DNA from: an uncultured Faecalibacterium sp.
Lineage (GTDB): Bacteria; Bacillota; Clostridia; Oscillospirales; Ruminococcaceae
NCBI GenBank assembly: GCA_934561555.1
Contig: CAKTGQ010000033.1
Span: 1 to 17,067, forward strand
Direction of reading: 5' to 3'
DNA: 17,067 nucleotides
Made by a program: the position numbers and the translations under genes. Below, piece by piece: positions 115-16,414 of this stretch. The notes beneath the pieces were generated by a model. It was not told where the DNA came from. It ran no database searches and worked only from the letters and a program-made list of their open reading frames with translations. The first letter of the stretch is position 1; each line of letters begins with the position of its first letter.

Positions 115-360
115 TCAGACCGTTTCGGCTTTGGTTACAATAGAAGAAATCAGTTTGATTTCCAGATGGCGTTTCATGTACTCGTCTATGCACACATGAG
201 GCTGACCGTGCTTGTCATAGAGAATGCCTGTACAGAGCTTGTTGATATAACCTCTGTAATGTCGCAAAACCTGTTCAACTGCATCGGTGTCCCCAGCGCA
301 GGCAGAGCGAATCACCGAGAGCGGTAAAAACTCTCTGCTCGTGTGTTCATAGGAGTTCAT
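115..360 (-). CDS. Tn916 Orf8-like helix-turn-helix domain protein
   Basis: This 81-residue protein matches the short helix-turn-helix family (HTH_16 type) found just after the sigma-like gene in Tn916-family elements. Residues about 12-45 hold the family signature, LPLSVIRSACAGD followed by AVEQVLRHYRGYI. The C-terminal part (IDEYMKRHLEIKLI) resembles the tail of Tn916 Orf8. The family resembles sigma-factor region 2 and is thought to act with the Orf7-like protein to activate expression of excision and transfer genes; that role is inferred. The ATG at 358-360 lies 6 bases after the stop of the sigma-like gene, and its ribosome site (GGAGGGAGG) is within that gene's last codons, so the two are probably translationally coupled. 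Confidence 0.85.
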   Translation of the reverse strand: MNSYEHTSREFLPLSVIRSACAGDTDAVEQVLRHYRGYINKLCTGILYDKHGQPHVCIDEYMKRHLEIKLISSIVTKAETV

Positions 361-366
361 TTACGC

Positions 367-798
367 CTAACCTCCCTCCGGCAAGTGCGCCTTTAGCTTT
401 TTTTGCAGCTCGTTCAGCGTTTTTGTCCGGTGGCGCTGTACAGCACTCCGGGACATTCCCATGAGGTCGCCAATCTTGCCATCGCCCAGTTCCAGAACGC
501 AAAACAGAATCAGAATGCTTTGTTCTTGCTTTGGCAGAGCGGCAAACGCATTGGCAACAAGTTCATTGTCGATGTGCAGATCACAGCCGTAGGATGAAAA
601 TACAAATTCTTCACTTGGATAATGGTCTACACTCGTGAGCTGCCCCAGTTCTTCCAACGAAAGAACGCTGAATGACTTTTCACGGTCAAGCAGACGTTTC
701 TTATTTCGGTGATAGTTCCGGGCCTCATTTCGCAGCACCGCTTTGCAGAACGCATCGAATCGGTACTGTTCGCCATCGTTGCGAGGGATAGCTTCCAT
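367..798 (-). CDS. Tn916 Orf7-like sigma-70 family regulator
   Basis: I place the start at the ATG at 796-798, preceded by GGGGGTGAGAAG, giving 143 residues. An upstream extension to 1071 is open but has no ribosome site and reads like noncoding DNA. The length matches Tn916 Orf7 (about 140 residues). Residues about 12-45 (FDAFCKAVLRNEARNYHR) form a degenerate region 2. Residues 78-135 form sigma region 4, with a helix-turn-helix at about 106-131 (DGKIGDLMGMSRSAVQRHR) and the phrase ALPKQEQSILILF before it. Orf7-type proteins act in the cytoplasm as transcription activators of the element's transfer functions. It is co-directional with the Orf8-like gene and probably shares one transcript. 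Family is clear; the target promoters are not visible. Confidence 0.9.
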   Translation of the reverse strand: MEAIPRNDGEQYRFDAFCKAVLRNEARNYHRNKKRLLDREKSFSVLSLEELGQLTSVDHYPSEEFVFSSYGCDLHIDNELVANAFAALPKQEQSILILFCVLELGDGKIGDLMGMSRSAVQRHRTKTLNELQKKLKAHLPEGG

Positions 799-1102: not shown

Positions 1103-1153
1103 GGCAGCATCCTCCTATGGCCGCCATACGGACGATGAAACGCTTTGATAAGC

Positions 1154-1196
1154 AAAAAGAGCCGGCGGCCTTGATTTTCTCAAACACCGCCGGTTC
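1154..1196 (-). terminator. intrinsic terminator, minus strand
   Basis: In the minus transcript GAACCGGCGG (plus 1187-1196) pairs with CCGCCGGCUC (plus 1159-1168), nine Watson-Crick pairs plus one wobble, around an 18-base loop, followed by UUUUU. It lies 83 bases beyond the first terminator after the KTR gene and about 50 bases before the candidate leader peptide. It is either a backup terminator or an attenuator for a transcript that starts between 1197 and 1278. Confidence 0.7.
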
Positions 1197-1278
1197 AAAA
1201 TGGGCGCAAAGAGTCACCTGCTCCAACCAACGGCTTTTTTATTTCCCCTTAGTCGGGGCAGGTTCTCATCATATACTG

Positions 1279-1329
1279 AAAAAAAGAACCGATAATCACA
1301 AGTGAATTCACCTTGTGCATTACCGGCTC
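1279..1329 (-). terminator. strong intrinsic terminator of the cargo operon
   Basis: The minus transcript folds GAGCCGGUAAUGCACAAGG against CUUGUGAUUAUCGGUUC around a short loop containing GAATTC, followed by seven U. The stop codon of the KTR gene lies inside the 5' arm, so translation ends within the hairpin. It closes the seven-gene operon. Confidence 0.85.
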
Positions 1330-1505
1330 TGCGTCTGTGCGTCTGGCTCTTTGATAACAGATATATTCAGTTGTCGTGCGGAGATCAATGTTTCATGCTT
1401 GCATTTGGGACAGTACAACGGGAAGTTTTCAAGAACTGTATCTTCTCGTATTCGTACTCGCGTTTTGGAATCGCATACTGGACACAATATCCATGTTTCG
1501 ATCAT
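1320..1505 (-). CDS. cysteine-rich KTR domain protein (Tn916 Orf6-like)
   Basis: This 61-residue protein has two CxxC knuckles, CPVC at residues 8-11 and CPKC at 32-35, with the family signature KTR at 14-16 and the phrase EDTVLENFPL between them. This is the small cysteine-rich KTR family, which follows tet(M) in Tn916-like elements (Orf6). The four cysteines probably bind one zinc ion; no biochemical role is known to me. Its ATG at 1503-1505 overlaps the TGA of the DUF3784 gene (ATGA), so it is translated with the cargo operon. Its stop codon is in the operon's terminator hairpin. Its position beside the Orf7-like region is the same as in Tn916. Confidence 0.9.
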   Translation of the reverse strand: MIETWILCPVCDSKTRVRIREDTVLENFPLYCPKCKHETLISARQLNISVIKEPDAQTQSR

Positions 1506-1876
1506 TGCTTTGTACCGTCATTCTTGCAGTTCTTGAAACCACGCATAGCAGCCCAAATGCCGATAACAATGATATATGCACAGATACCCAGCGCGACAAT
1601 AGTTATTTCCGTGCCATAGTCCGAAATAGTGATATTCTGTATCGCCGGGATGGCCCGAAATTGAATGTACGATGTCAAGGCCAGCAACCCAACATCGACG
1701 AAAATCATAAGCAATCCAGTCTGCTTGCTTACCTTTTCCTTATCGTATTTCGCACGTTCTTCGGGGCTTTTCGTATTAAATCCTGAAACCAACATACTTC
1801 CTTTGCCCGTCAACAAGATAATCGTAGCGATAATAGCGATTGCCACAATCACCCACATAATCCAGATAAACCACAT
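1502..1876 (-). CDS. DUF3784 family membrane protein
   Basis: I choose the ATG at 1874-1876 (124 residues), because GGGAG lies 8 bases before it; a TTG six codons upstream is open but less well served. Predicted membrane segments are at residues about 3-23, 55-70 and 91-111. Between the first two is the family phrase LLTGKGSMLVSGFNTKSPEE, typical of DUF3784, a small membrane family common beside transporters in Firmicutes. Its function is unknown. It follows the ABC permease by 25 bases and overlaps the KTR gene by four bases, so it belongs to the cargo operon and may be an accessory to the transporter. Confidence 0.75.
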   Translation of the reverse strand: MWFIWIMWVIVAIAIIATIILLTGKGSMLVSGFNTKSPEERAKYDKEKVSKQTGLLMIFVDVGLLALTSYIQFRAIPAIQNITISDYGTEITIVALGICAYIIVIGIWAAMRGFKNCKNDGTKQ

Positions 1877-1901
1877 AATCAAAACTCCCTTCAATCCTTG
1901 A

Positions 1902-3521
1902 TTAAACTTTGTAATATAAATACTGACCTTTTTTGTCTACCCACGTCACCATTGCTAAAAACAACAGTAAAATGATTGCACAGGCAATCCAACTCCCGAT
2001 AAACAAAGAACTTGGGAAAAATCTCAACAACAAATATGCCGTTCCGCAGGTAACTACAACTCCAATCAATGCTGTCAAAATCGCTGGTAGGCTTTGCTTG
2101 ATAATGTGGGTGACATTCTCCCATTCAAAATTTGGGAAAATAAGATTTAAGATGTAGCCTATCATTCCAATCAGCACCGAACATAGCAAAGGAAAAGCAT
2201 ACCCCAGCATAGCTTTAGGGAAAGACCATTGCAAATACAATGCCATGATGGTATTCAAAACAAAAATTGTCGGTACAGACATTGAGAGATGGTGCAGCAG
2301 CTTTACTCGAAAGAGGCTCTTTGCCGCAATGGGTAAGGATTTCAGTATTTCAATCTGTTTCCCCTCGATAGAAATACTGACATAGGTTGTGCAGGATATT
2401 GTTGTCAAGATAGAAAAAGCATATATGAACAGCACATCATAATCAGCAAAAGGCACCTGAAAATATTCGGCCAACTGATAAATGTATGGTGTGATCTTAT
2501 CCGACATTAAAACAACCAGCAGAACAAAGACCGCAGCAAAAAGCAATCCGCAGGCGGTATTGGTTAGATATACTGGAAGCGAAAAATAACGTGTGCGCTC
2601 TCTTTCTAAAAGAGCAGATACCGGGCTGTGCTGTTCCGTGGTTTCTTTGTTCCAATCGACGGGCTGACTTTTTGAGCCTTGTATTGCATCATTGCTATAC
2701 CAGTTACGAAATATTTTGATTAGACCATAGAGCAGAGTAACGCCTATCAGGAATACCCCGCCGAAGTATAAACCTATCAACAGATAGTCCCCGTTAAGCA
2801 ATCGGTGAATATACCGGCCTGCATAAAGTGTAAAAGTCGAGGTAGAAATAACATCCCCAAAATTTCCGGCAGCTATATCAGGGAATTTGCAGAACATAAA
2901 GATCATAAATGCAAACAAAACCAGAATAGCCGCCGCTGCCTTTAGTCGGGCGATACGAGCAGAGGAACTTTTCAAGATGCGGTAAATCTGTGTTCCGATC
3001 ATTGTTCCCAAAAGGCCGGGAATGACAGGAAAGAGGATTGTTATTTCAAGCACAATTAGATAAAACGGAAATCCCATATCTGCGGTCAGGCCAAACAGCA
3101 CCATCATAGGAAGCAGCAGAGCCGCAGTAAGGGCTACTTCAACTATAAACAAGACACTCAATTTTGAGAGTATCAATGTACGCAGCGGAATTGGAAGCGC
3201 AAGCACACTGTCAATGTTAGTATCGCTAAGGAGCAGGCCGCTTCCCCAAAAAACACTAATCGCAATATTGAGTATCACGCAGATTAGCGCCATAGGAACA
3301 ACAAGTTCTATGACTACTTCTTCCAACGACCACGCAATAGAATAAATGATTTTCAAGGAGTAAATCAGGTATGCAAGCAATCCCATTAGGATCGCGGCTA
3401 TAAGCATATACAAAGTGATCGTTTTTGTGCGGTTCTTTGTATCTGCATATCGAAGCTGATTGGCATGAGATAGCTGCAAAAGATTATTCCTTAGTAGGGG
3501 TAACAGAAATTTCATCGCCAT
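1902..3521 (-). CDS. ABC transporter permease subunit (exporter type)
   Basis: This 539-residue hydrophobic protein has about twelve predicted membrane segments in two similar halves, split by a hydrophilic stretch near residues 275-305 (SKSQPVDWNKETTEQHSP). The second half contains EGKQIEILKSLPIAAKSLF, a motif seen in large ABC-2-like permeases that couple to a separate ATPase. It overlaps the ATPase gene by 38 bases, so the two products are made together and most likely form one exporter in the cell membrane. Substrate is not readable from sequence; next to SdpI-like and DUF1648 proteins a toxic peptide or membrane-active drug is my inference. The start at 3519-3521 is four bases after GGAG; the ATG two codons later (spacing 10) is also possible. 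Confidence 0.82.
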   Translation of the reverse strand: MAMKFLLPLLRNNLLQLSHANQLRYADTKNRTKTITLYMLIAAILMGLLAYLIYSLKIIYSIAWSLEEVVIELVVPMALICVILNIAISVFWGSGLLLSDTNIDSVLALPIPLRTLILSKLSVLFIVEVALTAALLLPMMVLFGLTADMGFPFYLIVLEITILFPVIPGLLGTMIGTQIYRILKSSSARIARLKAAAAILVLFAFMIFMFCKFPDIAAGNFGDVISTSTFTLYAGRYIHRLLNGDYLLIGLYFGGVFLIGVTLLYGLIKIFRNWYSNDAIQGSKSQPVDWNKETTEQHSPVSALLERERTRYFSLPVYLTNTACGLLFAAVFVLLVVLMSDKITPYIYQLAEYFQVPFADYDVLFIYAFSILTTISCTTYVSISIEGKQIEILKSLPIAAKSLFRVKLLHHLSMSVPTIFVLNTIMALYLQWSFPKAMLGYAFPLLCSVLIGMIGYILNLIFPNFEWENVTHIIKQSLPAILTALIGVVVTCGTAYLLLRFFPSSLFIGSWIACAIILLLFLAMVTWVDKKGQYLYYKV

Positions 3522-4218
3522 TCATCTCCATAAATACTTCTTCCAAACCCTTTGTTCCAACGATTTCTGTTGTCCTGCCGGAATACAGTAATTGTCCATG
3601 CTTAATAACGGACACTTTATTGCACACCTTTTCTACCACATCAAGAATATGGCTTGAAAACAGAACGGAATTTCCACTTGCACAGAGTTCTTTCATCTGC
3701 TCTTTCAGGATCACAAATGCCTCCGGGTCTAATCCGACGAAAGGTTCATCCAATATCAGCAGTTTAGGCGTGTGTGAAAAGGCGGCAATCAGCGCAAGTT
3801 TCTGTTTCATGCCGTGGGAGTAAGAGGAAATCAAGTTATTCAAATGCGGCCCCATCTGAAAAGCCAAGGCCAATTTCTCGAAGTTTTGTTTCCGCATCTT
3901 GGACGGTACTTCGTAAATATCACAGATAAAGTTGATATACTGCAATCCTGTCATATACTCGTCAAGCTGGGGATTATCTGGCACATACGCCATCTTCTGC
4001 TTACAAGCCAACGGTTCTTTTAGGACAGAAGTTCCATCCAAAAGGATTTCTCCCTCGTCAATGCCGATGATACCTAAACAGGCTTTCAATGTTGTGGTTT
4101 TGCCAGCTCCATTCTTTCCGATGAAGCCCATTATGTCGCCATCTTCCACGACAAAACTAAGGTTGCTTACAGCCTTTTTCGCACCGTAGCTTTTGGATAA
4201 GTTCTTGATTTGTAACAT
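3484..4218 (-). CDS. ABC transporter ATP-binding protein
   Basis: This 244-residue protein is a complete nucleotide-binding domain. Walker A is GKNGAGKTT (residues 34-42), the signature loop is the variant YSHGMKQK (133-140), Walker B is LLILDEP (153-159), the D-loop follows as GLDP, and the switch histidine is H190 (FSSHIL). It hydrolyses ATP to drive the overlapping permease. AAGGA lies 5 bases before the ATG. The 89-base gap to the DUF1648 gene upstream is the only sizeable gap in the operon; it holds a run of ten T on the minus strand and a third copy of the operator-like repeat. The family resembles exporters linked to antibiotic and lantibiotic resistance, but that gives no substrate. 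Confidence 0.92.
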   Translation of the reverse strand: MLQIKNLSKSYGAKKAVSNLSFVVEDGDIMGFIGKNGAGKTTTLKACLGIIGIDEGEILLDGTSVLKEPLACKQKMAYVPDNPQLDEYMTGLQYINFICDIYEVPSKMRKQNFEKLALAFQMGPHLNNLISSYSHGMKQKLALIAAFSHTPKLLILDEPFVGLDPEAFVILKEQMKELCASGNSVLFSSHILDVVEKVCNKVSVIKHGQLLYSGRTTEIVGTKGLEEVFMEMNGDEISVTPTKE

Positions 4219-4233
4219 AGCATTCCTTGCCTT

Positions 4234-4254
4234 TATTTAGAAAAATTTCAAAAT
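4234..4254. promoter_or_regulatory. third operator-like repeat, inside the operon before the ABC genes
   Basis: Read on the minus strand, this 21-bp site (ATTTTGAAATTTTTCTAAAT plus A) matches the two repeats at the operon promoter at 18 of 21 positions. The motif is near-palindromic, so orientation matters little. It ends about 6 bases before the ABC ATPase ribosome site. TTGAGT and TAAATA 18 bases apart overlap it, but a start there would fall on the ribosome site, so a promoter is doubtful. AT-rich chance similarity cannot be excluded. Confidence 0.45.
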
Positions 4255-4307
4255 GAAACTCAAAAAAAAAATAACCGTTCCGCCACCAAAGTTCTTGTTG
4301 GGGAAAT

Positions 4308-4616
4308 TCACTTCATCCCCAAATAAATCATGATGCCCGTTGCTACGAATGCAACAACAGCCATGATATAGTACATATACGGCTTTGCATTCTCTTTCTG
4401 CCTTACGGTAAAGCCAGAAATGAGGTTCAGCAGGACGCAAGCCACAGGGACGCCGAACACTACAACATTGCGGGGCCAGAAAGAATTTGCAACTCCGGTA
4501 GAATCAAAGTGGACGGGGATAGACGCCGGCAGGCGGTTATAGAAAGCGAGAAAGACTACCAGCGTCAATGCACACAAAATGGTGCTGATAACAATATGCT
4601 TCGTTGCGGACTTCAT
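4308..4616 (-). CDS. DUF1648 domain membrane protein
   Basis: This 102-residue protein has membrane segments at about 8-26, 50-70 and 81-99. After the first comes the DUF1648 signature, LPASIPVHFDSTGVANSFWP (residues 29-48), which pairs PxxIPxHF with a downstream GxxN. In Bacillus SdpI-type immunity proteins this domain is usually the N-terminal part of the same chain as the SdpI domain; here it is a separate gene directly after the SdpI-like gene, with its own ribosome site (AGGAGG, 8 bases before ATG). It may form a complex with that partner in the membrane. Role in immunity is inferred from context. Confidence 0.82.
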   Translation of the reverse strand: MKSATKHIVISTILCALTLVVFLAFYNRLPASIPVHFDSTGVANSFWPRNVVVFGVPVACVLLNLISGFTVRQKENAKPYMYYIMAVVAFVATGIMIYLGMK

Positions 4617-4630
4617 AAGTATTACCTCCT

Positions 4631-5227
4631 TTAATTGCTTCGTTTCCTCTTAAAATAGAGGACAAGCGAATAGACCAACGGGACAATGCCAACCAGAAAA
4701 ATGATTAGCGGAACGGTTACAAAAACAAGATTGTGTAGTGGATGAAGAATGCTGACAATACCGGCTAATATCCATGTGTAGCCGCCCAGCCGATGCGTCT
4801 TGTACCAGCCTTCTTCATCATTGAATAACCATGGAAACTTTAGCCCGATATAGGGGTTGATGTGGTTTTTGGGGAAATAATTGCCGCTGACAATAAATAA
4901 AATGCCAATAAAGACATACCAATAAGTATCTTGCATAGTCTTAGCGGGAAAAAGTACGGAATATACCTGCGGGATCAAATATACAACTCCCGCAATCGGC
5001 ATAATCCATTTACCCAAAGATACTAACGCCTTGGCTCCGTTTGTCGAAGCGATTTTGATACTAAGCGCAAGGTTCAGAACAATATTCAGCAAAACGGCAA
5101 TCACATAGAGCAGAATATAGTTTTCGTTGCTGGCCTCGCCCATGTGGGACAGAGCGAATGCTACGATGGACAAAATAATGCAAATTGTACTTGTCAGAAA
5201 CAAGGTTCGTTTATTTTTGGGGTTCAT
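4631..5227 (-). CDS. SdpI-like immunity/signalling membrane protein
   Basis: I start the gene at the ATG at 5225-5227, 8 bases after AGGAGG, giving 198 residues; an ATG further upstream would overlap the repressor gene heavily. About six membrane segments are predicted (near 9-27, 37-57, 72-92, 101-115, 150-163 and 168-191). Residues 116-149 hold the SdpI family pattern: NYFPK, NPYIGLKFPW, then W with THRLGG. In Bacillus subtilis SdpI protects cells from the toxin SDP and, when it binds toxin, sequesters the repressor SdpR at the membrane. The gene overlaps the ArsR-like repressor gene by 17 bases, the same pairing as sdpR-sdpI. Whether it detects a peptide or confers immunity in this host is inference. 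Confidence 0.83.
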   Translation of the reverse strand: MNPKNKRTLFLTSTICIILSIVAFALSHMGEASNENYILLYVIAVLLNIVLNLALSIKIASTNGAKALVSLGKWIMPIAGVVYLIPQVYSVLFPAKTMQDTYWYVFIGILFIVSGNYFPKNHINPYIGLKFPWLFNDEEGWYKTHRLGGYTWILAGIVSILHPLHNLVFVTVPLIIFLVGIVPLVYSLVLYFKRKRSN

Positions 5228-5495
5228 CTTTATCCTCCTGAAATTGCATAAGCCACATGACAACACTTTCAAATACCGATGTATTGATTTCATAATAGAT
5301 GTATTTCTGATAGCGTGTTTCAAAAATCAAATCAGCCTTTTTTAGAGTGGAAAGGTGGTATGAAATAGTGGCATTAGTCAAGTCAAATTCTGCGGCAATT
5401 TCACCGGCTGACATCTTCCGTTTTTGTTTTAGTTTCAGTAGTATCTCCCGTCGGACAGGATCACTTAATGCTTTGAAAATATTAGGTAAACTCAC
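5211..5495 (-). CDS. ArsR/SdpR-like winged-helix repressor
   Basis: This 94-residue protein starts at GTG (5493-5495), preceded 8 bases upstream by AAGGTG. It has the ArsR fold: LSDPVRREILLKL (10-22), then the helix-turn-helix SAGEIAAEFDLTNATISYHL (29-48) with recognition helix about 41-53, then a wing ending in KYIYYEI. It has no cysteine at all, so it lacks the ELCVC metal site of ArsR/SmtB sensors. That fits SdpR, which is an autorepressor controlled by its membrane partner and not by metal. It is the first gene of the cargo operon and probably binds the repeats at 5522-5542 and 5584-5604, repressing its own promoter. Confidence 0.88.
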   Translation of the reverse strand: MSLPNIFKALSDPVRREILLKLKQKRKMSAGEIAAEFDLTNATISYHLSTLKKADLIFETRYQKYIYYEINTSVFESVVMWLMQFQEDKDEPQK

Positions 5496-5521
5496 AGTGC
5501 TTTCACCTTTGCCCCCCTGTT

Positions 5522-5542
5522 ATTTTGAAAAATCTCTAAATG
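5522..5542. promoter_or_regulatory. operator-like repeat 1, over the transcription start
   Basis: The site reads ATTTTGAAAAATCTCTAAAT plus G. It differs from repeat 2 at one of 21 positions and is an imperfect dyad. It begins 9 bases downstream of the -10 box, so a bound repressor would cover the transcription start. The repressor gene starts about 27 bases further on. Confidence 0.65.
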
Positions 5543-5550
5543 ATATTTTC

Positions 5551-5578
5551 ATTGTAGCACAATAAGAAAGAAAGTCAA
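5551..5578 (-). promoter_or_regulatory. cargo operon promoter
   Basis: On the minus strand TTGACT (plus 5573-5578) and TACAAT (plus 5551-5556) are 16 bases apart, and TGC before the -10 box gives an extended -10. This is a strong sigma-A promoter. It fires toward the ArsR-like gene, and the start would be near 5544. It sits exactly between the two operator-like repeats. Confidence 0.75.
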
Positions 5579-5583
5579 CACTC

Positions 5584-5604
5584 ATTTTGAAAATTCTCTA
5601 AATG
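5584..5604. promoter_or_regulatory. operator-like repeat 2, upstream of the -35 box
   Basis: The site reads ATTTTGAAAATTCTCTAAAT plus G. With one base added on the left it forms a 22-bp imperfect palindrome, CATTT to AAATG, with 9 of 11 half-site pairs. It begins 6 bases upstream of the -35 box. Its distance from repeat 1 is exactly 62 bp, close to six turns of B-DNA, so two repressor dimers would lie on the same face. Confidence 0.65.
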
Positions 5605-5683
5605 GCTTTCTTATGGGCTGTTCAGGATGGCCCAGATTAGTCTACTCTGGTGTCATGGTTATGTATTGCCATAATCAAATAAA

Positions 5684-5754
5684 CATGAATTATAAAATGT
5701 AGACAGAACGGACATAGCAACATTTCGCCAATCGCTCATGAACTATAAAATGTA
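5684..5754. promoter_or_regulatory. two 18-bp direct repeats upstream of the XRE gene
   Basis: CATGAATTATAAAATGTA (5684-5701) recurs as CATGAACTATAAAATGTA (5737-5754), one mismatch in 18, 53 bp apart. Both contain TATAAA, usable as a -10 box, but neither has a good -35 box at the right distance. The second copy ends 4 bases before the ribosome site (GGGTGA) of the XRE gene. They are candidate operators for that regulator. Confidence 0.5.
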
Positions 5755-5769
5755 TATGGGTGATGCAGA

Positions 5770-6138
5770 ATGGCGAAAATTGAGGACTGTCCCGGCTTTG
5801 AAACGTTCGGAGCGGATGTCAAGGCAGCACGAAAGGCAAAACAGCTTTCCCGCAGTGCGCTGGCTGACATGATACATTGTGACAGCCGGTATCTTGCGAA
5901 CATTGAGAACGAAGGCACGCTGCCCAGCCTGCCGGTGGTGATTCAGCTGATAAAAATATGTGGTCTGCCCGTGGAGCGGTACTTCAACCCGGAACTCATG
6001 CGGGAAGAAAGTGCGGAACGTCAGCGGGTCAGCCACAAGCTGCAGCTTTGCCCGGAAGAATACTTACCCATCGTAGAAGGTGCCATTGACGGTGCGCTGC
6101 GAATCCATGAACAGGAAAAAGAGCCCGCGTGTGTCTGA
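5770..6138 (+). CDS. Tn916 Orf9-like XRE-family regulator
   Basis: This 122-residue protein has a Cro/C1-type helix-turn-helix at residues about 12-66: FGADVKAARKAKQLSRSALA, then DSRYLANIENEGTLPSLPV. Phrase for phrase it resembles Tn916 Orf9, with RYLxNIENxGxxPSL being the shared core, and the C-terminal half continues with a helical segment as in that protein. Orf9 is regarded as a repressor of the divergent orf7 region in Tn916. GGGTGA lies 6 bases before the ATG. As in Tn916 it points away from the orf7/8-like genes, but here a 4-kb cargo operon separates them. An intrinsic terminator follows at 6157-6189. Confidence 0.9.
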   Translation: MAKIEDCPGFETFGADVKAARKAKQLSRSALADMIHCDSRYLANIENEGTLPSLPVVIQLIKICGLPVERYFNPELMREESAERQRVSHKLQLCPEEYLPIVEGAIDGALRIHEQEKEPACV

Positions 6139-6156
6139 TTGCCACGCATGGTCATT

Positions 6157-6329: not shown

Positions 6330-6659
6330 ATGACGAACCGAACCCGAAAAATTGTTCTGCGTGTTCCCGTGACGCCGGAGGAACAGGAACTTATCCGGCA
6401 GAAGATGGCTCTGCTGCACACACGGAATTTTTCTGCCTACGCCCGGAAGATGCTGATAGATGGTTATGTTGTCCACATCGACACCACTGACATCCGGGCG
6501 CAGACCGCCGAATTGCAGAAGATTGGCATCAATGTCAACCAGATCGCGCGGCGGCTGAACAGCATGGGGCCGCTGTACACACAAGACGTTGCGGACATCA
6601 AAGGAGCGCTGGCACAGATATGGCAGTTACAAAGATACATCCTATCAAGTCAACGCTGA
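6330..6659 (+). CDS. mobC: MobC-like relaxosome accessory protein
   Basis: I start at the ATG at 6330, after GAGGTGA with 4 bases spacing, giving 109 residues; the open extension to 6195 covers the oriT-like repeats and has no ribosome site. The N-terminus, KIVLRVPVTPEEQELI (7-22), looks like a ribbon-helix-helix DNA-binding segment. Residues 65-77 (IGINVNQIARRLN) are the hallmark of the MobC/NikA-like family. Such proteins bind oriT, bend or open it, and bring in the relaxase. The last 40 bases overlap the relaxase gene, so expression is tightly coupled. Confidence 0.9.
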   Translation: MTNRTRKIVLRVPVTPEEQELIRQKMALLHTRNFSAYARKMLIDGYVVHIDTTDIRAQTAELQKIGINVNQIARRLNSMGPLYTQDVADIKGALAQIWQLQRYILSSQR

Positions 6660-7948
6660 AAAAGGCACTGGACTACATCGAGAATCCAGCCAAGACGGAT
6701 GAAAAAATGCTGGTGTCCTCCTTTGCCTGCTCCTATGAAACCGCCGACATCGAATTTGAACTGCTGCTATCACAAGCCATGCAGAAAGGCAACAATCTGG
6801 CCCACCACCTGATACAGTCTTTTGCGCCGGGCGAAACCACGCCGGAGCAGGCCCACGAGATTGGCCGGCAGCTTGCAGATGAAGTCCTGCAAGGCAAATA
6901 CCCGTATGTGCTGACCACGCACATTGACAAAGGGCACGTCCATAATCACATCATCTTCTGTGCTGTGGACATGGTGAATCAGCGAAAGTATGTTTCCAAC
7001 CGACAAAGCTATGCCTACATCCGGCGCATCAGCGACCGGCTGTGCAAGGAACATGGCCTGTCCGTGGTAATGCCCGGCCAAGACAGGGGCAAGAGCTATG
7101 CCGAGTGGGACGCGCACCGCAAGGGCACGAGTTGGAAGGCGAAGCTGAAAGCCGCCATAGATGCAGCCATTCCGCAGGCCAAGGATTTTGACGATTTTCT
7201 GCGGCTCCTGCAGGAGCAGGGCTACGAGGTAAAGCGTGGCAAGTATGTTTCGTTCCGTGCGCCCGGACAGGAACGGTTCACCCGCTGCAAAACACTGGGA
7301 GAAGCCTATACCGAGGAAGCTATTACCGAGCGCATTAAAGGACGGTCCGTGGAACGGAAGCCCAAAGAAAACCATAAAATTTCGCTGCGGATTGATTTGG
7401 AGAACAGCATCAAGGCCCAGCAGTCCGCAGGGTATGAGAAGTGGGCAAAACTCCACAATCTGAAACAGGCTGCCCGGACGCTGAACTTTCTGACGGAGCA
7501 TGAAATTGATAGTTACCCGGATTTGGAAAGCCGGGTGGCCGAGATCACCGCCGCCAGCACCGAAGCTGCCGCCGCATTGAAAGCAGCAGAGCGCCGGCTT
7601 GCTGAAATGGCCGTGCTGATAAAGGATGTCACCACCTGTAAAGAACTGCGCCCACTGTTGCAGGAGTATCAGCGGGCTGCTGACAAAAAGCAGTTCCGAC
7701 GTAAGCATGAAGGAACCTTGATTCTCTATGAAGCAGCGGCGAAAGCTCTAAAAGAGCAGGGCTTTCAAAAGCTGCCCGACCTCTACGCCCTGAAAAACGA
7801 GTATAAGCAACTGGCCGAGCAGAAAGACCAGATGCAGCGGCAGTACAATGATGCCAAACGCCAGATGCAGGAGTATGGCATCATAAAGCAGAATGTGGAC
7901 GGCATTCTGCGGACAGCACCGGGAAAGGAGCAGATGCAGGAACGGTAA
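6620..7948 (+). CDS. mobA: MOBP-type relaxase (MobA/VirD2-like)
   Basis: The 442-residue protein is a transesterase that nicks oriT and stays bound to the 5' end of the transferred strand. The N-terminal relaxase domain spans about 1-240. Y19 (ALDYIENP) is the likely nicking tyrosine. The metal-binding motif HIDKGHVHNH (101-110) shows the HxDxxHxHxH pattern of this family. Residues about 300-430 are rich in A, E, K and Q and predicted to be coiled coil. Its length is usual for Tn1549-like relaxases. GGAG lies 13 bases before the ATG, within mobC. It must act with the type IV coupling protein, which is outside the window. The gene is on the opposite strand to the rest of the transfer genes seen here. 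Confidence 0.93.
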   Translation: MAVTKIHPIKSTLKKALDYIENPAKTDEKMLVSSFACSYETADIEFELLLSQAMQKGNNLAHHLIQSFAPGETTPEQAHEIGRQLADEVLQGKYPYVLTTHIDKGHVHNHIIFCAVDMVNQRKYVSNRQSYAYIRRISDRLCKEHGLSVVMPGQDRGKSYAEWDAHRKGTSWKAKLKAAIDAAIPQAKDFDDFLRLLQEQGYEVKRGKYVSFRAPGQERFTRCKTLGEAYTEEAITERIKGRSVERKPKENHKISLRIDLENSIKAQQSAGYEKWAKLHNLKQAARTLNFLTEHEIDSYPDLESRVAEITAASTEAAAALKAAERRLAEMAVLIKDVTTCKELRPLLQEYQRAADKKQFRRKHEGTLILYEAAAKALKEQGFQKLPDLYALKNEYKQLAEQKDQMQRQYNDAKRQMQEYGIIKQNVDGILRTAPGKEQMQER

Positions 7949-9071: not shown

Positions 9072-9272
9072 TTATTCACCCGTAAAATCAAACCTCTGCC
9101 CGTCAAAGTCAGCATCGGTCATGTACTCTAACTTTGTAATGGTTCCATTCGCCAGCCGCCGCATTTCCGTATCCATGTCCGGCAGGACGGCCAGCATCCG
9201 CGCCATCGTCCGGCGGCGGTCAGAGGTGTGGTACACACAGATCAAATTTTCTTCTTCTACGCTGAAATTCAT
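9072..9272 (-). CDS. TTRAP-type transposon-transfer assisting protein
   Basis: This 66-residue acidic protein starts MNFSVEEENLICVYHTSDRR and contains the segments MARMLAVLPDMD and ITKLEYMTDADFD, the layout of the putative transposon-transfer assisting family (TTRAP). The family occurs across Tn1549-like elements, usually next to ArdC or relaxase genes; no mechanism is known to me. GGAGG lies 8 bases before the ATG, and the gap to the upstream gene's stop is 3 bases. It is the last gene of the right-hand minus-strand operon, which ends at the long inverted repeat. Confidence 0.78.
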   Translation of the reverse strand: MNFSVEEENLICVYHTSDRRRTMARMLAVLPDMDTEMRRLANGTITKLEYMTDADFDGQRFDFTGE

Positions 9273-9275
9273 GCG

Positions 9276-10220
9276 TTAGACCTCCATTTCGTATTGTTTG
9301 CTGCAGGCCGCTGCTTTTTTCGGGCTGGCGGTCTGTTTCGTTTCGGAAAGCTGCTTGCGGACAGAAGCACGGGGTTTGCGAATGTTCTTATCTCGGTTCT
9401 CGTTTTTGTCAACCAGCGCGTAGATGCCAAAACGGTCTTTTACGCTGGACAGATGTAAAGATTTATACGGCAGCATGGCAAGCAGCTGGTCAGTGTCCCG
9501 GCTGGATGCCAGCTTGGTGAAATAGGGCGATACCTCTACCATGAAATGATTCTTGTCCGGGCTGTTGGGAGCAGCCAGACGCTTCATATCGGCTACGATA
9601 CGCTGTGCCTCGGCCTCGATCAGCCCGGTGTGCAATGCCGCAAGGTGTTCTTTGAAATCACCGGGTCGTGCAGGTTCCCGGCTGCGCTGCTCCTGCCGGA
9701 TGACCGCTTGCAGAAGCTCCGGGTCGCGGGGCTGCATTTCATACCGCACGAGTGCCCCGAAATATTTGTCCGGGTGGCTGTCGAAATGCTCTTTCGGGCC
9801 AATCTCCCGCATCCCGCTTTCGTAGATCAGGCGGTTGGCGCCCACGGACAAGGCTGCATCCCGGATATGCTGGAAGTGCTGCTGATAGTCCAGTTCATAC
9901 AGATTGCCTTGCACAGTTCCGTTGGCCGCGCCGGTCAGCTCCACCGCATAGGCAAGAATCCTGTCATGGGTCTGTTCGCCGCAGAATTTCCATGTGTTGT
10001 AGGCTTGCGTGTCTTTGAGCAGCACGTCCCGTTCCCGGAAGCAGAATGTTCCAGAGGGCCGGGACAGCCACAACAGCAGCTTATCTTCCGGCTGGTCGCT
10101 GCGGGCGGCCTCCCGCAGCATCTTGATGTCGTAGGAAAAATCGCTCTGGTAGTACGCGGTGTTCTGGTGCATGATGGCTTCCAGCGCAGCGATCACATCC
10201 ATATTTTCAAACTTTTGCAC
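9276..10220 (-). CDS. conserved element protein of unknown function
   Basis: The 314-residue protein starts at GTG (10218-10220), 8 bases after GGAGG; the GTG is 3 bases past the stop of the ArdA-ArdC fusion gene. I do not recognise a catalytic motif. The N-terminal half (about 1-150) is rich in aromatic residues (QNTAYYQSDFSYDIKMLREA and LWLSRPSGTFCFRERDVLL). The middle contains ALSVGANRLIYESGMREI and HPDKYFGALVRYEMQPRD. The C-terminal 60 residues are basic (RDKNIRKPRASVRKQ), suggesting nucleic-acid contact. There are no signal peptide or membrane segments. Its place between ArdA/ArdC and TTRAP suggests a role in establishment of the element in the recipient, which is inference. Confidence 0.7.
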   Translation of the reverse strand: MQKFENMDVIAALEAIMHQNTAYYQSDFSYDIKMLREAARSDQPEDKLLLWLSRPSGTFCFRERDVLLKDTQAYNTWKFCGEQTHDRILAYAVELTGAANGTVQGNLYELDYQQHFQHIRDAALSVGANRLIYESGMREIGPKEHFDSHPDKYFGALVRYEMQPRDPELLQAVIRQEQRSREPARPGDFKEHLAALHTGLIEAEAQRIVADMKRLAAPNSPDKNHFMVEVSPYFTKLASSRDTDQLLAMLPYKSLHLSSVKDRFGIYALVDKNENRDKNIRKPRASVRKQLSETKQTASPKKAAACSKQYEMEV

Positions 10221-10223
10221 GGC

Positions 10224-13200
10224 TTATACCTCCAATTCCTTTGTCTTTTCCCGTGGCGGCGTTCGCTTGCTCTGCTCCTTTTTTGCGGCATCCAGCTGTG
10301 CCCGGATGGACGGCTTTTTCGTTTTTGCGGCGCGGGACTTCTTGGCTTTCGGTGTCTTTTCCTCGGCCTTGACTGCGGCGGCAAGGTCCGTCAGGGAAAT
10401 TTGTTCTCCGGCCTTTGCCTTGGCCTCCAATTCGCCCAGAGAGGGCGCATTGTTCAGCACACCATCAATCATATTTTCGTTCTGTTCGGTGGAAAGTTCT
10501 GCGGTGCGCAGCGGGTTTTCCAGCAAGAACTCTGGCACCTGCTGGAAGCCCACACTGTCGCAGTAGTGGGCGGTATCCTGCCCGTTCTGATGCAGCACCA
10601 CCACATCCGAAACAGACAGCGAATGCCCCTTGAAATCTGCCGGATGGTCCACATTGAATGTGCGGTAGATGTCCTCCAACGTGGTGCCAGCAGTCAGCGG
10701 TGCGGCGTATACTTCCGTATAGTTGGCCTTACCCACGGTCAAACCGGCAGCCTGCAGGCGGTCGTAGGGCTCAAAACGGTAATCACGGGTGGAATCTTCA
10801 TTGCGCAGCTGGTAAATGGAAAAGTTGTCCTGCTGCGGTGCTTCAAAGCCTGCCGCCGCGTATTCCTTTACGGTCATTCCAGCAGCGGCCGCTTCCTGCT
10901 CGATCTCGGTCTGCACCTGCGCCTTGTAGTCCTGCAAGCTCTGGTCAAAATCGGCCAGCTTGGGCGACTCCGGCAAGTTGTACTGGCCTTGGTTGAGCAG
11001 CGGGCGGCAGTCCTGCACATAGGCCACAACAGCGTTGTAATAGGCAGTCTGTTCCGGCGAAGCGTTCTGCCCCTCCCGCAAAGCGGTGGTGGCTGCCTGC
11101 TCCATGGCCGAAAGGTTACAATGCTGTTTGAGGTATGGGATAAACTCGGTCAGCACCATTTCCCGCTCTGCCTTGTCCTGCTCCCACGCTTCCGGGCCTT
11201 TGTTGTGCAGAACAAAATTCTTCCAGTTCTCGTCCTTGGCGTAGTATTCGTGGTAGCTTTGGATGTGCTGAATCAGGGAGCCGTCCCCGTCACCAAAATC
11301 CTGCCGCCCCTCGTAGTTGTCCGGCTGGCCGTTCAGGGTAAAATCAATACGGAATGCGGTCTTGTCGTACCAGCCGCCCTCGTAACCATCCTTTTCCCGT
11401 TCCGTGTGCTGGGCGGTGTCCAGTTCTTCAAAAACGCGATTTGCCACTGACAGCGGCATAGTTTCGCCGTTCTGCAGCTTGTCACTTTCACTCCACAGAA
11501 TCGTGACCGTGGGCTCTGCGGCGGGGTCTGGAATTTTAACAGGTGCGGGAACTTCGTTGGCCTTTTCCGCCGCCTCTTGGAACGCCGCCAGCTTATCGCC
11601 CAATAGGACTTCCGACACCACAGCTGTCTGCCCCAGCAGGTTAAGTGCTTCCTCTCCGGCATCTTTCAAGGTCAGACCGGGCGCGTCCAGCTGTCCACCG
11701 TCCAGAGCCTTGTTGTCCGGGCCGTACAGGGTATAGTCATAGCCGGAATCACAGGTCTGGATGAACAGGGTGCTGCCGTTGTCCAGCGCAAATGCGGCTT
11801 CCTGTGCAGCGGAAAGGTCTGCTTCCCGCTGCTGGCGCAGTTCTGCCAGATGTTCATCCAGCGCAGAGATCAGCTCATGGGCTGCGCTGCGGATAACTTC
11901 CAGAGAGGCTTTCAGTTCGGCCAATTCCCGGCCCGAACTCCACCCGGCCACATAGCCAAACGAATACTCGGATGTGTCCAGCCCATAGTGCTGGCAGACA
12001 GCATAGGCCACGCTTTCAGCCTGCACCTCGCGGGTGCGGCTGTCCGGGCGGTTGGTCTGTTCCGGGTCATCCGGGTCGATGGCGTGCAGCTTGGCATGGG
12101 CAATCTCATGGATAGCCGTCTTGATGGTCTGTAACTGGCTCATGCCCTCTTGGATGGCAATGCGATTGTTGAGCAGGTGGAAGTAACCGTGCGCCTCTCC
12201 CTCGATGTCCTCAAACCCGATGGGCACCGGGGATGCCTGCTCCAAAGCCTTGAAAAAATCTTGATAGTCCTGCACACTGCCGGAAAGTTCGTTCACTGCG
12301 ATGGACGGCAGCGGTTCGCCCTCGGTCTGGCTGACATCGAACACGGACACCACCTTGAAAGCCGGAATCTGCACCGTCTTTTCTTCCGTCAGCAGTTTGC
12401 CGTCCTTGTCCAGAATCGGCTTGCCCTGCTCGTCCAGCTTTTCCATCTTCTGCTTGACTTTGTACGGCGCAGGAGCAAGGATTTTGATGCCCTTTTCGCC
12501 TTTCTTCACGGTGCGGTGGAATGTGTCCTTCCACTTGTTGAAGCCTGCCACCAGCTGCCCGCCCTGCATGGCGATCAGCAAGGTGTTGTTGAAGCTGTAA
12601 TTGTGGAATTTCGCCATCGTGGTAAGGTAGGCTTTGTAGCGGTCGCTGTCGAACAGCTCTTGAATCCCTGTTTCCAGCCGGTCCGTAATTTCTTTCATGC
12701 GTTCTACGCTGTCCTTGCCGTTCAGGATAATGGGAAGAACTTTCTGCGGTTTTGTTTCGGCTTGAACAGGCGACGGGATGTTGACCGCATCCCGCAGGAT
12801 TTCCGGCGCAGGAAAGGACAGCACCCGGTATTCCTCCGGCACGGGCTGGCCCTCGTGGACTTTCTGCCACTCGTCCCCACTTTTGACAAGATAGCCGTAT
12901 TGGGTGAACGCGCCCTGCTCCTGCTGGGCCACATACCGGCCAAACTGCGCCGTGTCGATGCCGCCTTTCCATTCCTCCGGCATATCCACCATGCCGGAGC
13001 GGTTCAGGTAGTAGTCACCCAGTTGGGCAGGCCCGTGTACCTCCGGCAGATGCACATAATAGTCCACGTTTTCGGGAACGTCGGTAATTCTCCCGATGCT
13101 GGAAAGCTCACTCTGCGGGGCTTGCAGAGCGGCGTTCAGTTCTGCGCGTTCCCCCGCAGAGAGTGTTTCCAGCCGTGCGGCCAGAAAATTCAGCTCGTCC

Positions 13201-13418
13201 ACACTGGATGCCAGCACCATGTTGTAGGGAATCGCAAAACGCTTTTCTTCTTCGGCAAAGTAGCCGGAAATGAAAAGGCCCTGCGGGTTATCGGACGAAA
13301 TGCCGATTTGCCGCAGGGCCGCTTGTACCTGTTCGGTTGTGGTGGGAAGGTCTAGCCAGACACCATCCCTGCTTTGCTGCTGCCGATTTTGCAGCTGGAT
13401 GGCAAATAATTCGCTCAT
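10224..13418 (-). CDS. ArdA-ArdC-YodL multi-domain antirestriction protein
   Basis: The 1064-residue cytoplasmic protein is a fusion. Residues about 15-200 resemble ArdA, the DNA mimic that blocks type I restriction enzymes: acidic, with DELNFLAARLETL (74-86), LGDYYLNRSGM (133-143) and FGRYVAQQEQGAFTQYGYL (159-177). Residues about 236-365 match the ArdC single-strand DNA-binding domain (YNNTLL-type phrase FHNYSFNNTLLIAMQ, then GFNKWK and VKKGEKGIKILAP). Residues about 375-530 form a zinc metallopeptidase with HEIAH at 437-441 and E468 as likely third ligand. Residues about 864-968 resemble a YodL domain. The C-terminus (1015-1064) is Lys/Ala-rich. ArdC-type proteins protect incoming single-stranded DNA during conjugation. 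GGAG lies 9 bases before the ATG. Domain limits are estimates. Confidence 0.87.
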   Translation of the reverse strand: MSELFAIQLQNRQQQSRDGVWLDLPTTTEQVQAALRQIGISSDNPQGLFISGYFAEEEKRFAIPYNMVLASSVDELNFLAARLETLSAGERAELNAALQAPQSELSSIGRITDVPENVDYYVHLPEVHGPAQLGDYYLNRSGMVDMPEEWKGGIDTAQFGRYVAQQEQGAFTQYGYLVKSGDEWQKVHEGQPVPEEYRVLSFPAPEILRDAVNIPSPVQAETKPQKVLPIILNGKDSVERMKEITDRLETGIQELFDSDRYKAYLTTMAKFHNYSFNNTLLIAMQGGQLVAGFNKWKDTFHRTVKKGEKGIKILAPAPYKVKQKMEKLDEQGKPILDKDGKLLTEEKTVQIPAFKVVSVFDVSQTEGEPLPSIAVNELSGSVQDYQDFFKALEQASPVPIGFEDIEGEAHGYFHLLNNRIAIQEGMSQLQTIKTAIHEIAHAKLHAIDPDDPEQTNRPDSRTREVQAESVAYAVCQHYGLDTSEYSFGYVAGWSSGRELAELKASLEVIRSAAHELISALDEHLAELRQQREADLSAAQEAAFALDNGSTLFIQTCDSGYDYTLYGPDNKALDGGQLDAPGLTLKDAGEEALNLLGQTAVVSEVLLGDKLAAFQEAAEKANEVPAPVKIPDPAAEPTVTILWSESDKLQNGETMPLSVANRVFEELDTAQHTEREKDGYEGGWYDKTAFRIDFTLNGQPDNYEGRQDFGDGDGSLIQHIQSYHEYYAKDENWKNFVLHNKGPEAWEQDKAEREMVLTEFIPYLKQHCNLSAMEQAATTALREGQNASPEQTAYYNAVVAYVQDCRPLLNQGQYNLPESPKLADFDQSLQDYKAQVQTEIEQEAAAAGMTVKEYAAAGFEAPQQDNFSIYQLRNEDSTRDYRFEPYDRLQAAGLTVGKANYTEVYAAPLTAGTTLEDIYRTFNVDHPADFKGHSLSVSDVVVLHQNGQDTAHYCDSVGFQQVPEFLLENPLRTAELSTEQNENMIDGVLNNAPSLGELEAKAKAGEQISLTDLAAAVKAEEKTPKAKKSRAAKTKKPSIRAQLDAAKKEQSKRTPPREKTKELEV

Positions 13419-14329: not shown

Positions 14330-16414
14330 TCACATTATAGAATCTGTCGCAATTCGATAATTGACGTACTTACCTCCCGTATCTGCCAGAAGCACCGTTG
14401 CATCATAGGTTTTACCTATTTTCTCGGAGTAGAGGTCCTTGACCTTTGCCTTGCCGTTTTTGAGCAGAGCGGCGGCGATCTTCGGGGTGAACGCCTTTTT
14501 CCGCTGCTCAAAGAAACGGTCATTTTTCCACATCACGAACTGACAGCCACGGTTCCCGCAGTAGAAGTTTTTCTTGCCCTCATAGACATTTTCTTTGCAC
14601 CGGGGACACTTGCCGATGATAACCCGTTCCGACTGGAACAGGTTTTGCTTGTCTGCGCTGATGCAGGAATAGGTCTTGACCAGCTGGCGCACCTGCGCTT
14701 CAATTTCGGCCATGAACTCGTCCGGGTCTGCATTGCCCTTGGCAATCTCGGTCAGACGGTTTTCCCATTCAGCAGTCAGAGCGGGAGAGGTCAGGCTTTC
14801 CGGCAGAACCACCGCCAGATTGATACCGTCCTTGGTAGGGACAAGTTGTTTGCCCTTGCGCTGCACAAAGCCCATTTGCACCAGCTTTTCCAGAATCGCG
14901 GCGCGGGTGGCAGGAGTGCCCAGCCCCTTACGTTCTGCGTTTTCCGGCATATCCTCGGCCCCGGCCCGCTCCATTGCTGACAGGAGCGTATCTTCTGTAT
15001 AGGGTTTCGGCGGGGACGTGAAATGTTCCGAAATATCAGATACAACAGAACAACTTTGTCCCTCGGTCAGTTCCGGCAGGGTGTTCAGGGCTTCCGTTTC
15101 TTCGTCACTGTCTGCTTTCATGGTGGAGCGGAACCGTTGGTCGATCTCTTTCCAGCCGGGGACAAGAACAGTCTTTCCTTTGGCGGTGAACTCATTCCCG
15201 GCACAGGAGAACGCAGCGGTCACGGTTTCGTATTCATGGGGTGCAGCCACGGCGCAGAGCAGCTTGGAGCAGACAAGGTTCAGCAGCTTGCACTCACTCT
15301 CGGCAAGACCCGCGAAGCCCTGCTTTGCAAATTCGGCCGTGGGAAGGATGGCGTGGTGGTCCGATACCTTTTTGCTGTTCAGCACCCGGCCCACTTCCGG
15401 GGTCAGCGCAAGCCCTTGGGCAAAAGGTAGCAGACCCAGCAGGTCAGACACAAGATGTTGTGCCGTCCGGCCCATGTCCTCGGTCAGATATTGGCTGTCT
15501 GTGCGGGGATAGGTCAGCAGTTTCTTTTCGTAAAGCTGCTGGGCATAATCAAGGGTCTGCTTGGCCGTGAACCCGAACAGTCGGTTTGCCTCCCGCTGCA
15601 AGGTGGTCAGGTCATAGAGCTTGGGCGGCTGTTCCGTCTTTTTCTCTCGTTTGACAGAGGTACAGACGGCGGTTGCACCCGTGCATTTTTCTTTGAGAGA
15701 ATTTGCGGTTTCAGCCTCCGAAATATGCACACTGTCCGCTTTCAGGCTGCCGGACTGGATGCCGACTGTGTAATACTTTTCTTTTTGAAAGCGTAGAATT
15801 TTTGCATCCCGGTCCACTAGCATTTTTAGTGTCGGGGTCTGCACCCGGCCCACCGTCAGGGTCTTGTGGTACAGCACCGAAAACAGCCGCGTTGCGTTGA
15901 TGCCCACCAGCCAATCCGCTTTTGCACGGCAGAGGGCCGATTGATACAGAGCATCGTAGTCCGAATCTGGGCGCAGGTTTGCAAAGCCCTCCCGGATGGC
16001 GGCATCCTCCATGCTGGAAATCCAGAGCCGCTTCACGGGTTTCGTGCAGCCGGCCATTTGGTAGACAAAGCGGAAGATAAGTTCACCCTCCCGGCCTGCG
16101 TCGGTCGCGGCGGTCACACTGTCCACGTCCGGGCGGTTGAGCAGGGTGCGGACAATTTCAAACTGCTGTTTCTTTTCATCTGGCACGATGAACTGCCACG
16201 GCTGGGGCAGGATGGGCAAATCCTCATACCGCCACTTGCAGTATTTTTCATCGTACTGGCCTGCCTCTGCAAAGGACACCAGATGCCCGATGCACCAGCT
16301 GACCAGATACCCGCCGCCCTGCCAATAGCCGGTTTGCTTTTCGGTGGCCCCGATCACGGCGGCAATGCTGCGGGCCACACTGGGCTTTTCGGCAATCACC
16401 AGCTGAACGCTCAT
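14330..16414 (-). CDS. topB: DNA topoisomerase III (type IA)
   Basis: This 694-residue enzyme passes single DNA strands through transient nicks and is a standard part of Tn1549-like transfer regions, where it may act on the transferred strand or resolve intermediates. The TOPRIM domain has E9 (IAEKPSVA) and DAGREGE (105-111). GRVQTPTL (189-196) and the active-site tyrosine Y302 in TYPRTDS (301-307) mark the type IA core. The C-terminus has a four-cysteine zinc knuckle (C603, C606, C619, C624) and a short repeat of the topoisomerase C-terminal type. Full length for the family. AGGAGG lies 7 bases before the ATG, which overlaps the stop of the CD1107-like gene (ATGA), so the two are co-translated. 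Confidence 0.95.
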   Translation of the reverse strand: MSVQLVIAEKPSVARSIAAVIGATEKQTGYWQGGGYLVSWCIGHLVSFAEAGQYDEKYCKWRYEDLPILPQPWQFIVPDEKKQQFEIVRTLLNRPDVDSVTAATDAGREGELIFRFVYQMAGCTKPVKRLWISSMEDAAIREGFANLRPDSDYDALYQSALCRAKADWLVGINATRLFSVLYHKTLTVGRVQTPTLKMLVDRDAKILRFQKEKYYTVGIQSGSLKADSVHISEAETANSLKEKCTGATAVCTSVKREKKTEQPPKLYDLTTLQREANRLFGFTAKQTLDYAQQLYEKKLLTYPRTDSQYLTEDMGRTAQHLVSDLLGLLPFAQGLALTPEVGRVLNSKKVSDHHAILPTAEFAKQGFAGLAESECKLLNLVCSKLLCAVAAPHEYETVTAAFSCAGNEFTAKGKTVLVPGWKEIDQRFRSTMKADSDEETEALNTLPELTEGQSCSVVSDISEHFTSPPKPYTEDTLLSAMERAGAEDMPENAERKGLGTPATRAAILEKLVQMGFVQRKGKQLVPTKDGINLAVVLPESLTSPALTAEWENRLTEIAKGNADPDEFMAEIEAQVRQLVKTYSCISADKQNLFQSERVIIGKCPRCKENVYEGKKNFYCGNRGCQFVMWKNDRFFEQRKKAFTPKIAAALLKNGKAKVKDLYSEKIGKTYDATVLLADTGGKYVNYRIATDSIM

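Follow-up and report, generated by a model that had tools for sequence, protein, structure and literature searches.

What kind of mobile element carries the SdpR/SdpI-type operon found on a contig of an uncultured Faecalibacterium sp., and what does the operon do for its bearer? The window analysed here is the whole 17,067-nt stretch of contig CAKTGQ010000033.1, in which an initial annotation, made from the sequence alone, had placed a seven-gene immunity operon with its own ABC exporter in the tet(M) slot of a Tn916-like element. All genes claimed (SdpR, SdpI, DUF1648, ABC ATPase, permease, DUF3784 and KTR) were recovered with Pfam and NCBIfam models at 1320-5495 on the minus strand, and the count of seven is right if KTR is included, the earlier list being six genes plus KTR. 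They stand in one string whose genes overlap or are separated by short gaps, apart from 89 bp ahead of the ATPase gene; the start of the permease gene overlaps the ATPase gene. The string is part of a run of nine genes reading leftwards from 5495 to 115 on the minus strand of the window (Table 1). We conclude that the host belongs to the Tn1549/CD1107 type, and we favour, with a probability of roughly 55%, the view that it carries an independently mobile SdpR-SdpI-DUF1648-ABC-exporter cassette conferring inducible orphan immunity to a membrane-active peptide.

For the host element, the reference was the Tn1549 copy in the E. faecalis plasmid pMG2200 (NC_011642, locus L031), in which the order is integrase, excisionase, HTH_16, sigma, vanB operon, XRE, MobC and relaxase, followed further out by TTRAP, a hypothetical protein, YodL, DNA topoisomerase III (TopoIII) and CD1107. 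The window is collinear with Tn1549, the Sdp operon sitting in the vanB slot: XRE, MobC and the PF03432 relaxase adjoin the load, the HTH_16 and sigma genes lie at its opposite side, and TTRAP, YodL, TopoIII and CD1107 follow further out, with the protein identities listed in Table 1. Tn916, in turn, has the order load-KTR-Orf9-Orf7-Orf8, the load-KTR-Orf9 part of which we saw beside tet(S); the window does not follow this order. The XRE protein, which had been described as Orf9-like, is 77% identical to the XRE protein beside MobC in Tn1549 and only 33% identical (30/90) to the Orf9-like protein beside tet(S)/KTR, and it was rejected as Orf9 on account of this low identity and of its position at the far side of the load, since beside tet(S) the Orf9-like gene comes after KTR. 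Because of the Tn1549 gene order and identities, together with the poor resemblance of the XRE protein to Orf9, the bay is taken to be the vanB bay of Tn1549 and not the tet(M) bay, and these comparisons assign the host element to the Tn1549/CD1107 type rather than to Tn916. The window does contain KTR, sigma and HTH_16 genes of kinds related to those of Tn916, but a Tn916-like element with a refilled tet(M) slot is highly improbable, being already contradicted by the collinearity: all the rest of the window (MobC, relaxase, TTRAP, YodL/ArdC, TopoIII, CD1107) is of Tn1549 type and in Tn1549 order, and the XRE gene lies across the load from KTR. The two elements differ in their loads, which are vanB in Tn1549 and the Sdp cassette with DUF3784 and KTR in the window, and in two genes, BRO-N and Mrr-like, that the window has as extras. 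Window positions 1-7000 yielded no match among phage records and matched 15 plasmid records, 14 of them enterococcal and matching in the MobC/relaxase region only, and one matching the KTR gene.

The proposal that the slot is a cargo bay was borne out. In the nearest genome compared (G001, sharing 38% of sampled words), a sibling element aligns by blastn to window positions 1-1206 (95.9%) and 5685-8120 (97.8%), with nothing in between; in pairwise alignment the right-side match is clean only from about 5737, and the left edge coincides with a terminator-like hairpin of the backbone, which is kept in G001 (-23.9 kcal/mol, z -3.39). In this sibling (L086) the bay is filled by a BceRS/BceAB-like set, made up of genes for a response regulator, a kinase, an ABC ATPase and an FtsX permease of 839 aa. 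A relaxase survey gave 33 matches in 297 genomes of the family, of which 29 were analysed and four excluded (two in G052, one each in G682 and G685), with the bay edges defined by sigma/HTH_16 at one end and by MobC, whether or not XRE was present, at the opposite end. Both edges were visible in 16/29 stretches, the other 13 having no sigma-plus-HTH_16 edge within the analysed stretch or a bay cut by the contig end, and 15 of the 16 complete bays contained loads other than the Sdp cassette. Typed by Pfam on representatives and by BLAST among loads, these included Bce-like sets (L086, L089), MATE transporters (L088, L104), ArsR plus ArsP (L094), ABC plus ABC-2 genes (L105), ABC exporter sets with AraC-like regulators (L093, L097, L098, L102; Trep_Strep was tested in L093 only), a radical-SAM protein that is 98.8-100% identical on different contigs (L090, L091, L092, L103, L110), and an MFS transporter adjoining the radical-SAM gene in L103. 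The radical-SAM proteins, for which PF04055 was the only model tested, are presumably Cfr/RlmN-like; their genes have a KTR gene adjacent, and the L091 copy is in two pieces, split by a transposase-like open reading frame (ORF). In the sixteenth bay (L087, the same as L034, from Angelakisella massiliensis) the Sdp cassette stands in tandem with a two-component/ABC/ABC-2 set. Each set in this tandem bay (8030-19300 in L034) has its own sigma-HTH_16 pair behind it, the Sdp part reading cassette-KTR-sigma-HTH_16, and loads seem to stack behind HTH_16. Judged from these gene orders and alignments, the slot is an exchangeable cargo bay.

The load, in its turn, is not tied to this backbone. The shared Sdp cassette extends over approximately 1895-5609, from just past the permease stop to the predicted operator O1 described below: blastn aligns window positions 1895-5605 with L032 at 94.5% identity, 1895-5609 with L033 at 90.3%, 1914-5609 with L034 at 95.3%, and 2241-5613 with L035 at 96.1%, where the match ends at the L035 contig end, so that the right end of homology falls at 5605-5613 across L032-L035. 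The XRE-MobC-relaxase DNA beside the cassette is just 73.3% (L034) and 74.9% (L035) identical to the window. A backbone kept at 96-98% with a different load in G001, and a load kept in the diverged backbones of L034 and L035, therefore constitute a double dissociation, and by this comparison of sequences the cassette is one that has moved between elements independently of them. DUF3784 lies outside the shared unit: blastn shows no DNA homologous to it in L032-L034 and L037, and L034 and L037 lack a counterpart of the gene. In L033 the permease is followed by YhfC and DUF3887-like proteins (the second below cut-off), and near-identical ORFs occupy this place in L032.

The five closest relatives, defined by a permease at least 75% identical (L032, L033, L034, L035, L037), include three in the same type of bay, with both sides present in L034 and one side each in L035 and L037, where the contig end cuts the other. 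L032 lies near large serine recombinases (one of four tested by Pfam), and in L033 the neighbours, enolase among them, were judged by eye to be chromosomal genes. The operon is thus not found mainly at chromosomal sites unlinked to Orf6/7/9-like genes, the distribution that the initial annotation had named as contrary to its proposal. Judged by eye, the setting of L036 (permease 49%) is chromosomal; more distant still by permease are L038 and L039 (29-31%) and L040 (30%, exporter only). Close copies of the cassette are scarce across species, occurring in 1/394 genomes of the order and 0/398 of the phylum at E 1e-60; two metagenomic permease sequence clusters have 1127 and 1981 members. A 670-aa protein from a Faecalibacterium sp. 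metagenome-assembled genome contains the permease (98% of its length at 100%) joined to DUF3784, which points to Faecalibacterium or a relative as the probable host. Among viral contigs, none of the 85 stretches that fitted the permease profile pattern was confirmed.

Just upstream of the cassette lies a scar that includes some 33 nt from the 3′ end of an HTH_16 gene of foreign origin. It is 97% identical over 39 nt to the HTH_16 end in L034 and has no match to the HTH_16 gene of the window itself, and L035, in which the scar is identical, holds a longer piece of the foreign HTH_16 region, 89% identical over 250 nt to L034. The simplest reading would be an earlier tandem bay in which the cassette followed another module, an arrangement that L034 has at present.

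How the cassette may be controlled is suggested by a 22-bp dyad, CATTTnGAnAnTTTTCnAAATG, copies of which lie both in the SdpR promoter and ahead of the exporter gene. The dyad was found at three places in the window (six strand matches, against a shuffle mean of 0.07), two of them (O1 and O2) around the predicted promoter and the third (O3) in the gap before the ATPase gene; the right edge given in the initial annotation, 5604, is the exact end of O1. In all eight five-gene loci (the window, L032-L036, L038 and L039), with up to 3 mismatches allowed and just 89 bases available upstream in L038, dyads are confined to the SdpR promoter (two copies in five loci, one in three) and the exporter gap (one each), and at the same stringency none is present in L031 or L086. 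With the pattern fixed beforehand, an outside test covered 40 of 56 SdpI places (the G095 cassette, one of the five closest relatives, being among the places left out) and five exporter-only loci: a dyad lay no more than 160 nt upstream of SdpR in 11/24 exporter-less SdpR loci (against a mean of 0.01 and at most 1/24 in 200 rounds of shuffling), and in 0/21 stretches without an SdpR hit. Because of its recurrence in promoter and exporter gap and this association with SdpR, we strongly predict that the dyad serves as an operator for SdpR-family repressors, and membership of the exporter in the SdpR regulon is very probable. A simple scan of the region showed no excess of promoters (9 vs 11.4) or terminators (5 vs 5.0) over shuffles, nor did it pick up the backbone hairpin, and the promoter and terminator calls therefore rest on conservation and folding. 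In L039 the O3 site is contained in an extended perfect palindrome able to fold as RNA (-22.9 kcal/mol, z -6.3), as would be expected if O3 were an intercistronic hairpin setting transcript stability and not an SdpR site, but folding is not in excess for the window site (z -0.45) or that of L036 (z -0.82), where the operator letters are nevertheless kept and match the promoter sites, which makes a purely RNA-level role unlikely. A run of 7-10 T residues just upstream of O3 on the coding strand (window 4256-4290) is kept in 8/8 loci.

The presumed receptor side of the cassette is also unusual in its layout. DUF1648-like and SdpI-like hits fall in one ORF in 8/9 chromosomal SdpR/SdpI loci checked, whereas in the window SdpI (PF13630) and DUF1648 are encoded by neighbouring genes; a natural fusion, in the order SdpI-DUF1648, exists in the relative P0194. 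The single ORFs and the fusion suggest that the pair may do the work of one SdpI. SdpI is called a lipoprotein in the relevant part of PMC13343845 and a polytopic membrane protein in that of PMC1626106, and it is the latter family that the window protein fits.

With the exporter and the putative split receptor in place, the favoured reading would run as follows. SdpR would bind O1 and O2 around its own promoter and O3 before the exporter gene, keeping the operon low; a membrane-active peptide reaching the cell would be bound by the SdpI/DUF1648 pair, which would draw SdpR to the membrane; the operon would then open, SdpI neutralising the peptide and the ABC exporter removing it from the membrane. 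In B. subtilis, according to the sections of PMC1626106 compared here, SdpI is both the immunity protein and the receptor that sequesters SdpR at the membrane. The load looks like inducible immunity or resistance, as had been proposed, and it would be orphan (acquired) immunity rather than self-immunity, because no toxin gene was recognised beside the cassette. Sister bays with Bce-like and other ABC sets count in favour of peptide immunity. Several observations weigh against this reading or soften it. No sdpABC toxin gene was recognised by Pfam among the 19 window proteins, a search that did not include an SdpC model; the window SdpI is without an N-terminal DUF1648 domain and would work, if at all, as part of a split pair; the eight five-gene loci represent about three diverged lineages and not eight independent cases (the window shares 90-96% identity with L032-L035, and L038 shares 78% with L039); 13/24 other SdpR loci have no site at the stringency used, some having a looser dyad; no promoter is evident at O3 in the promoter scan; and the structure model of the permease is of moderate quality (predicted local distance difference test 72, predicted template modelling score 0.51) and without a significant match by Foldseek alone.

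The chief rival is a general efflux module, in which SdpR/SdpI would sense membrane perturbation and the exporter would pump small amphipathic compounds such as drugs or bile salts. The ATPase matches DrrA-, GldA- and gallidermin-type NCBIfam models, all below cut-off, DrrA being a drug exporter; the candidate structural relatives of the permease (NosFY, Rv1217c/1218c, PmtCD and ABCG; ABC-2, type V exporters), at about 8-16% identity in structural alignments, include the mycobacterial efflux pump Rv1217c/1218c; and MATE and MFS transporters occupy the same bay elsewhere. The fold matches, obtained with VIA-align, are mostly to the C-terminal half (289-539), the N-terminal half being barely covered, and the permease profile had no match among PDB sequences up to E 1. 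Yet in the compared part of PMC1626106 the only role studied for SdpI/SdpR is to sense the SDP peptide toxin and to confer immunity to it, and we regard general efflux as a serious but rather unlikely alternative. More unlikely again is a host operon for export or membrane maintenance that hitchhikes in the bay, secreting an endogenous peptide or lipid, with SdpI as a stress sensor and no immunity involved: although the operon is found among chromosomal genes in L033 and L036 (flanks assessed by eye), Pfam identified none of the cassette genes as biosynthetic or as coding for a precursor. Its repeated presence in exchangeable bays beside resistance-like loads, with near-identical copies in different backbones, suggests a selectable, transferable trait. 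As for anti-phage defence, PADLOC matched 2/7 operon proteins, over their ATPase or helix-turn-helix parts only (ATPase best to mad3, 5.6e-25; SdpR best to Csa3, 5.8e-14), and no system-specific protein.

Within the orphan-immunity reading, a broader scenario can be offered tentatively, at somewhat less than even odds: gut Firmicutes may acquire by conjugation a defence against the SDP-like peptides of their rivals, in the form of a mobile cassette for orphan immunity in which SdpI is a split receptor and the SdpR regulon has two tiers, one being the operators at the promoter and the other an operator of its own that gates the ABC exporter; the cassette would be shuttled between bays of different backbones. 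Acquired orphan-immunity clusters exist for type VI toxins, and the cassette would be their peptide counterpart.

The B. subtilis sdpRI operon, as described in the compared part of PMC1626106, likewise consists of an SdpR-family autorepressor followed by SdpI, and the window differs from it in having DUF1648 as a separate gene, an added ABC exporter with its own predicted operator, and no sdpABC recognised nearby. The idea of a bay is not new, because exchangeable accessory modules had already been described by Brouwer et al. (2011; PMC3158075): in the portion of that account compared, C. difficile elements that are otherwise alike differ in these modules, which are interchangeable and carry ABC transporters, two-component systems and sigma-like genes; antimicrobial-peptide resistance is proposed for the ABC modules, and no SdpR/SdpI module appears in the description. 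What is new is the cassette of split SdpI and exporter under predicted SdpR control, ABC-type accessory modules in such elements being already in print. Among titles and abstract openings of the open PMC literature (subscription papers fall outside this scope), we recognised no SdpR/SdpI cassette with an ABC exporter in such elements and no SdpR operator at an exporter. A sensor-repressor pair with a written-down predicted operator could be built into a reporter with which to search for the ligand, providing a handle on the peptides with which gut commensals fight, and the vanB bay of Tn1549-type elements would be a general port through which commensals exchange resistance- or immunity-like cassettes that bring their own regulation.

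Table 1. Features of the 17,067-nt window, with supporting models or observations and protein identity to Tn1549 (pMG2200 copy)
Feature	Position	Strand	Support	Identity to Tn1549
Orf8-like HTH_16 protein, backbone side of bay	115..360	-	PF12645	60%
Orf7-like sigma-70 region 4 protein, backbone side of bay	367..798	-	above NCBIfam TIGR02937 cut-off, below Pfam cut-offs	65%
Terminator-like hairpin, backbone side of left bay edge	1157..1203	-	-21.3 kcal/mol, z -2.83	
Cys_rich_KTR protein (Tn916 Orf6 family), 61 aa	1320..1505	-	PF14205, 110 bits	
DUF3784 membrane protein, 130 aa, outside shared cassette	1502..1894	-	PF12650	
Double-length permease, putatively ABC-2 type, 539 aa (537 from second Met)	1902..3521	-	PF16949, 22.3 bits, below cut-off 25.7	
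ABC exporter ATPase, 244 aa	3484..4218	-	PF00005	
Operator O3 (predicted SdpR site), 89-bp gap before ATPase gene	4234..4255	.	1 mismatch; site in this gap in 8/8 loci	
DUF1648 protein, 102 aa, separate gene	4308..4616	-	PF07853	
SdpI-family membrane protein, 198 aa	4631..5227	-	PF13630, 60.6 bits; 17-nt overlap with sdpR end	
SdpR-family ArsR-type autorepressor, 94 aa	5211..5495	-	NF033789, 119 bits (cut-off 100)	
Operator O2 (predicted SdpR site), downstream of -10	5521..5542	.	1 mismatch; site here in 8/8 five-gene loci	
Predicted SdpR promoter, TTGACT-16-TACAAT	5551..5578	-	-10/-35 kept in 8/8 loci	
Operator O1 (predicted SdpR site), upstream of promoter, right edge of mobile cassette	5583..5604	.	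dyad, 0 mismatches	
Scar with 3′ end of foreign HTH_16 gene	5607..5676	-	70/70 identical to L035	
XRE regulator, right side of bay	5770..6138	+		77% (90/117)
MobC/NikA-like protein	6342..6659	+	PF21983, PF05713	84%
MobA/VirD2-type relaxase	6620..7948	+	PF03432	82%
BRO-N protein after relaxase	8060-8956	+	where Tn1549 has VLP-domain and HTH proteins	
TTRAP, 314-aa protein, YodL/ArdA/ArdC polyprotein (backbone)	9072..13418	-	PF14203, PF14191, PF07275, PF08401; no Pfam match for 314-aa protein	TTRAP 64%, 314-aa protein 61%, YodL pieces 60-66%
Mrr-like restriction endonuclease, between YodL polyprotein and TopoIII	13537-14304	-	PF04471	
TopoIII and CD1107-like protein (backbone)	14330..17061	-	PF01131, PF14283	77% and 55%

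A few further features of these elements can be added. At the position of the Mrr-like gene, the pMG2200 annotation of the Tn1549 copy has no gene. In L032 (4490-10163) the cassette, with its YhfC/DUF3887 genes, lies between two partial direct copies of an OmpR-type winged-helix gene (the first identified by PF00486), and a truncated HTH_16 gene is present about 1.9 kb upstream. Unlike Tn1549, which ends in an integrase and excisionase, the G001 sibling has a large serine recombinase at its end (L086 9292-11422; PF00239/PF07508), and the element adjoins a tRNA-Leu gene.

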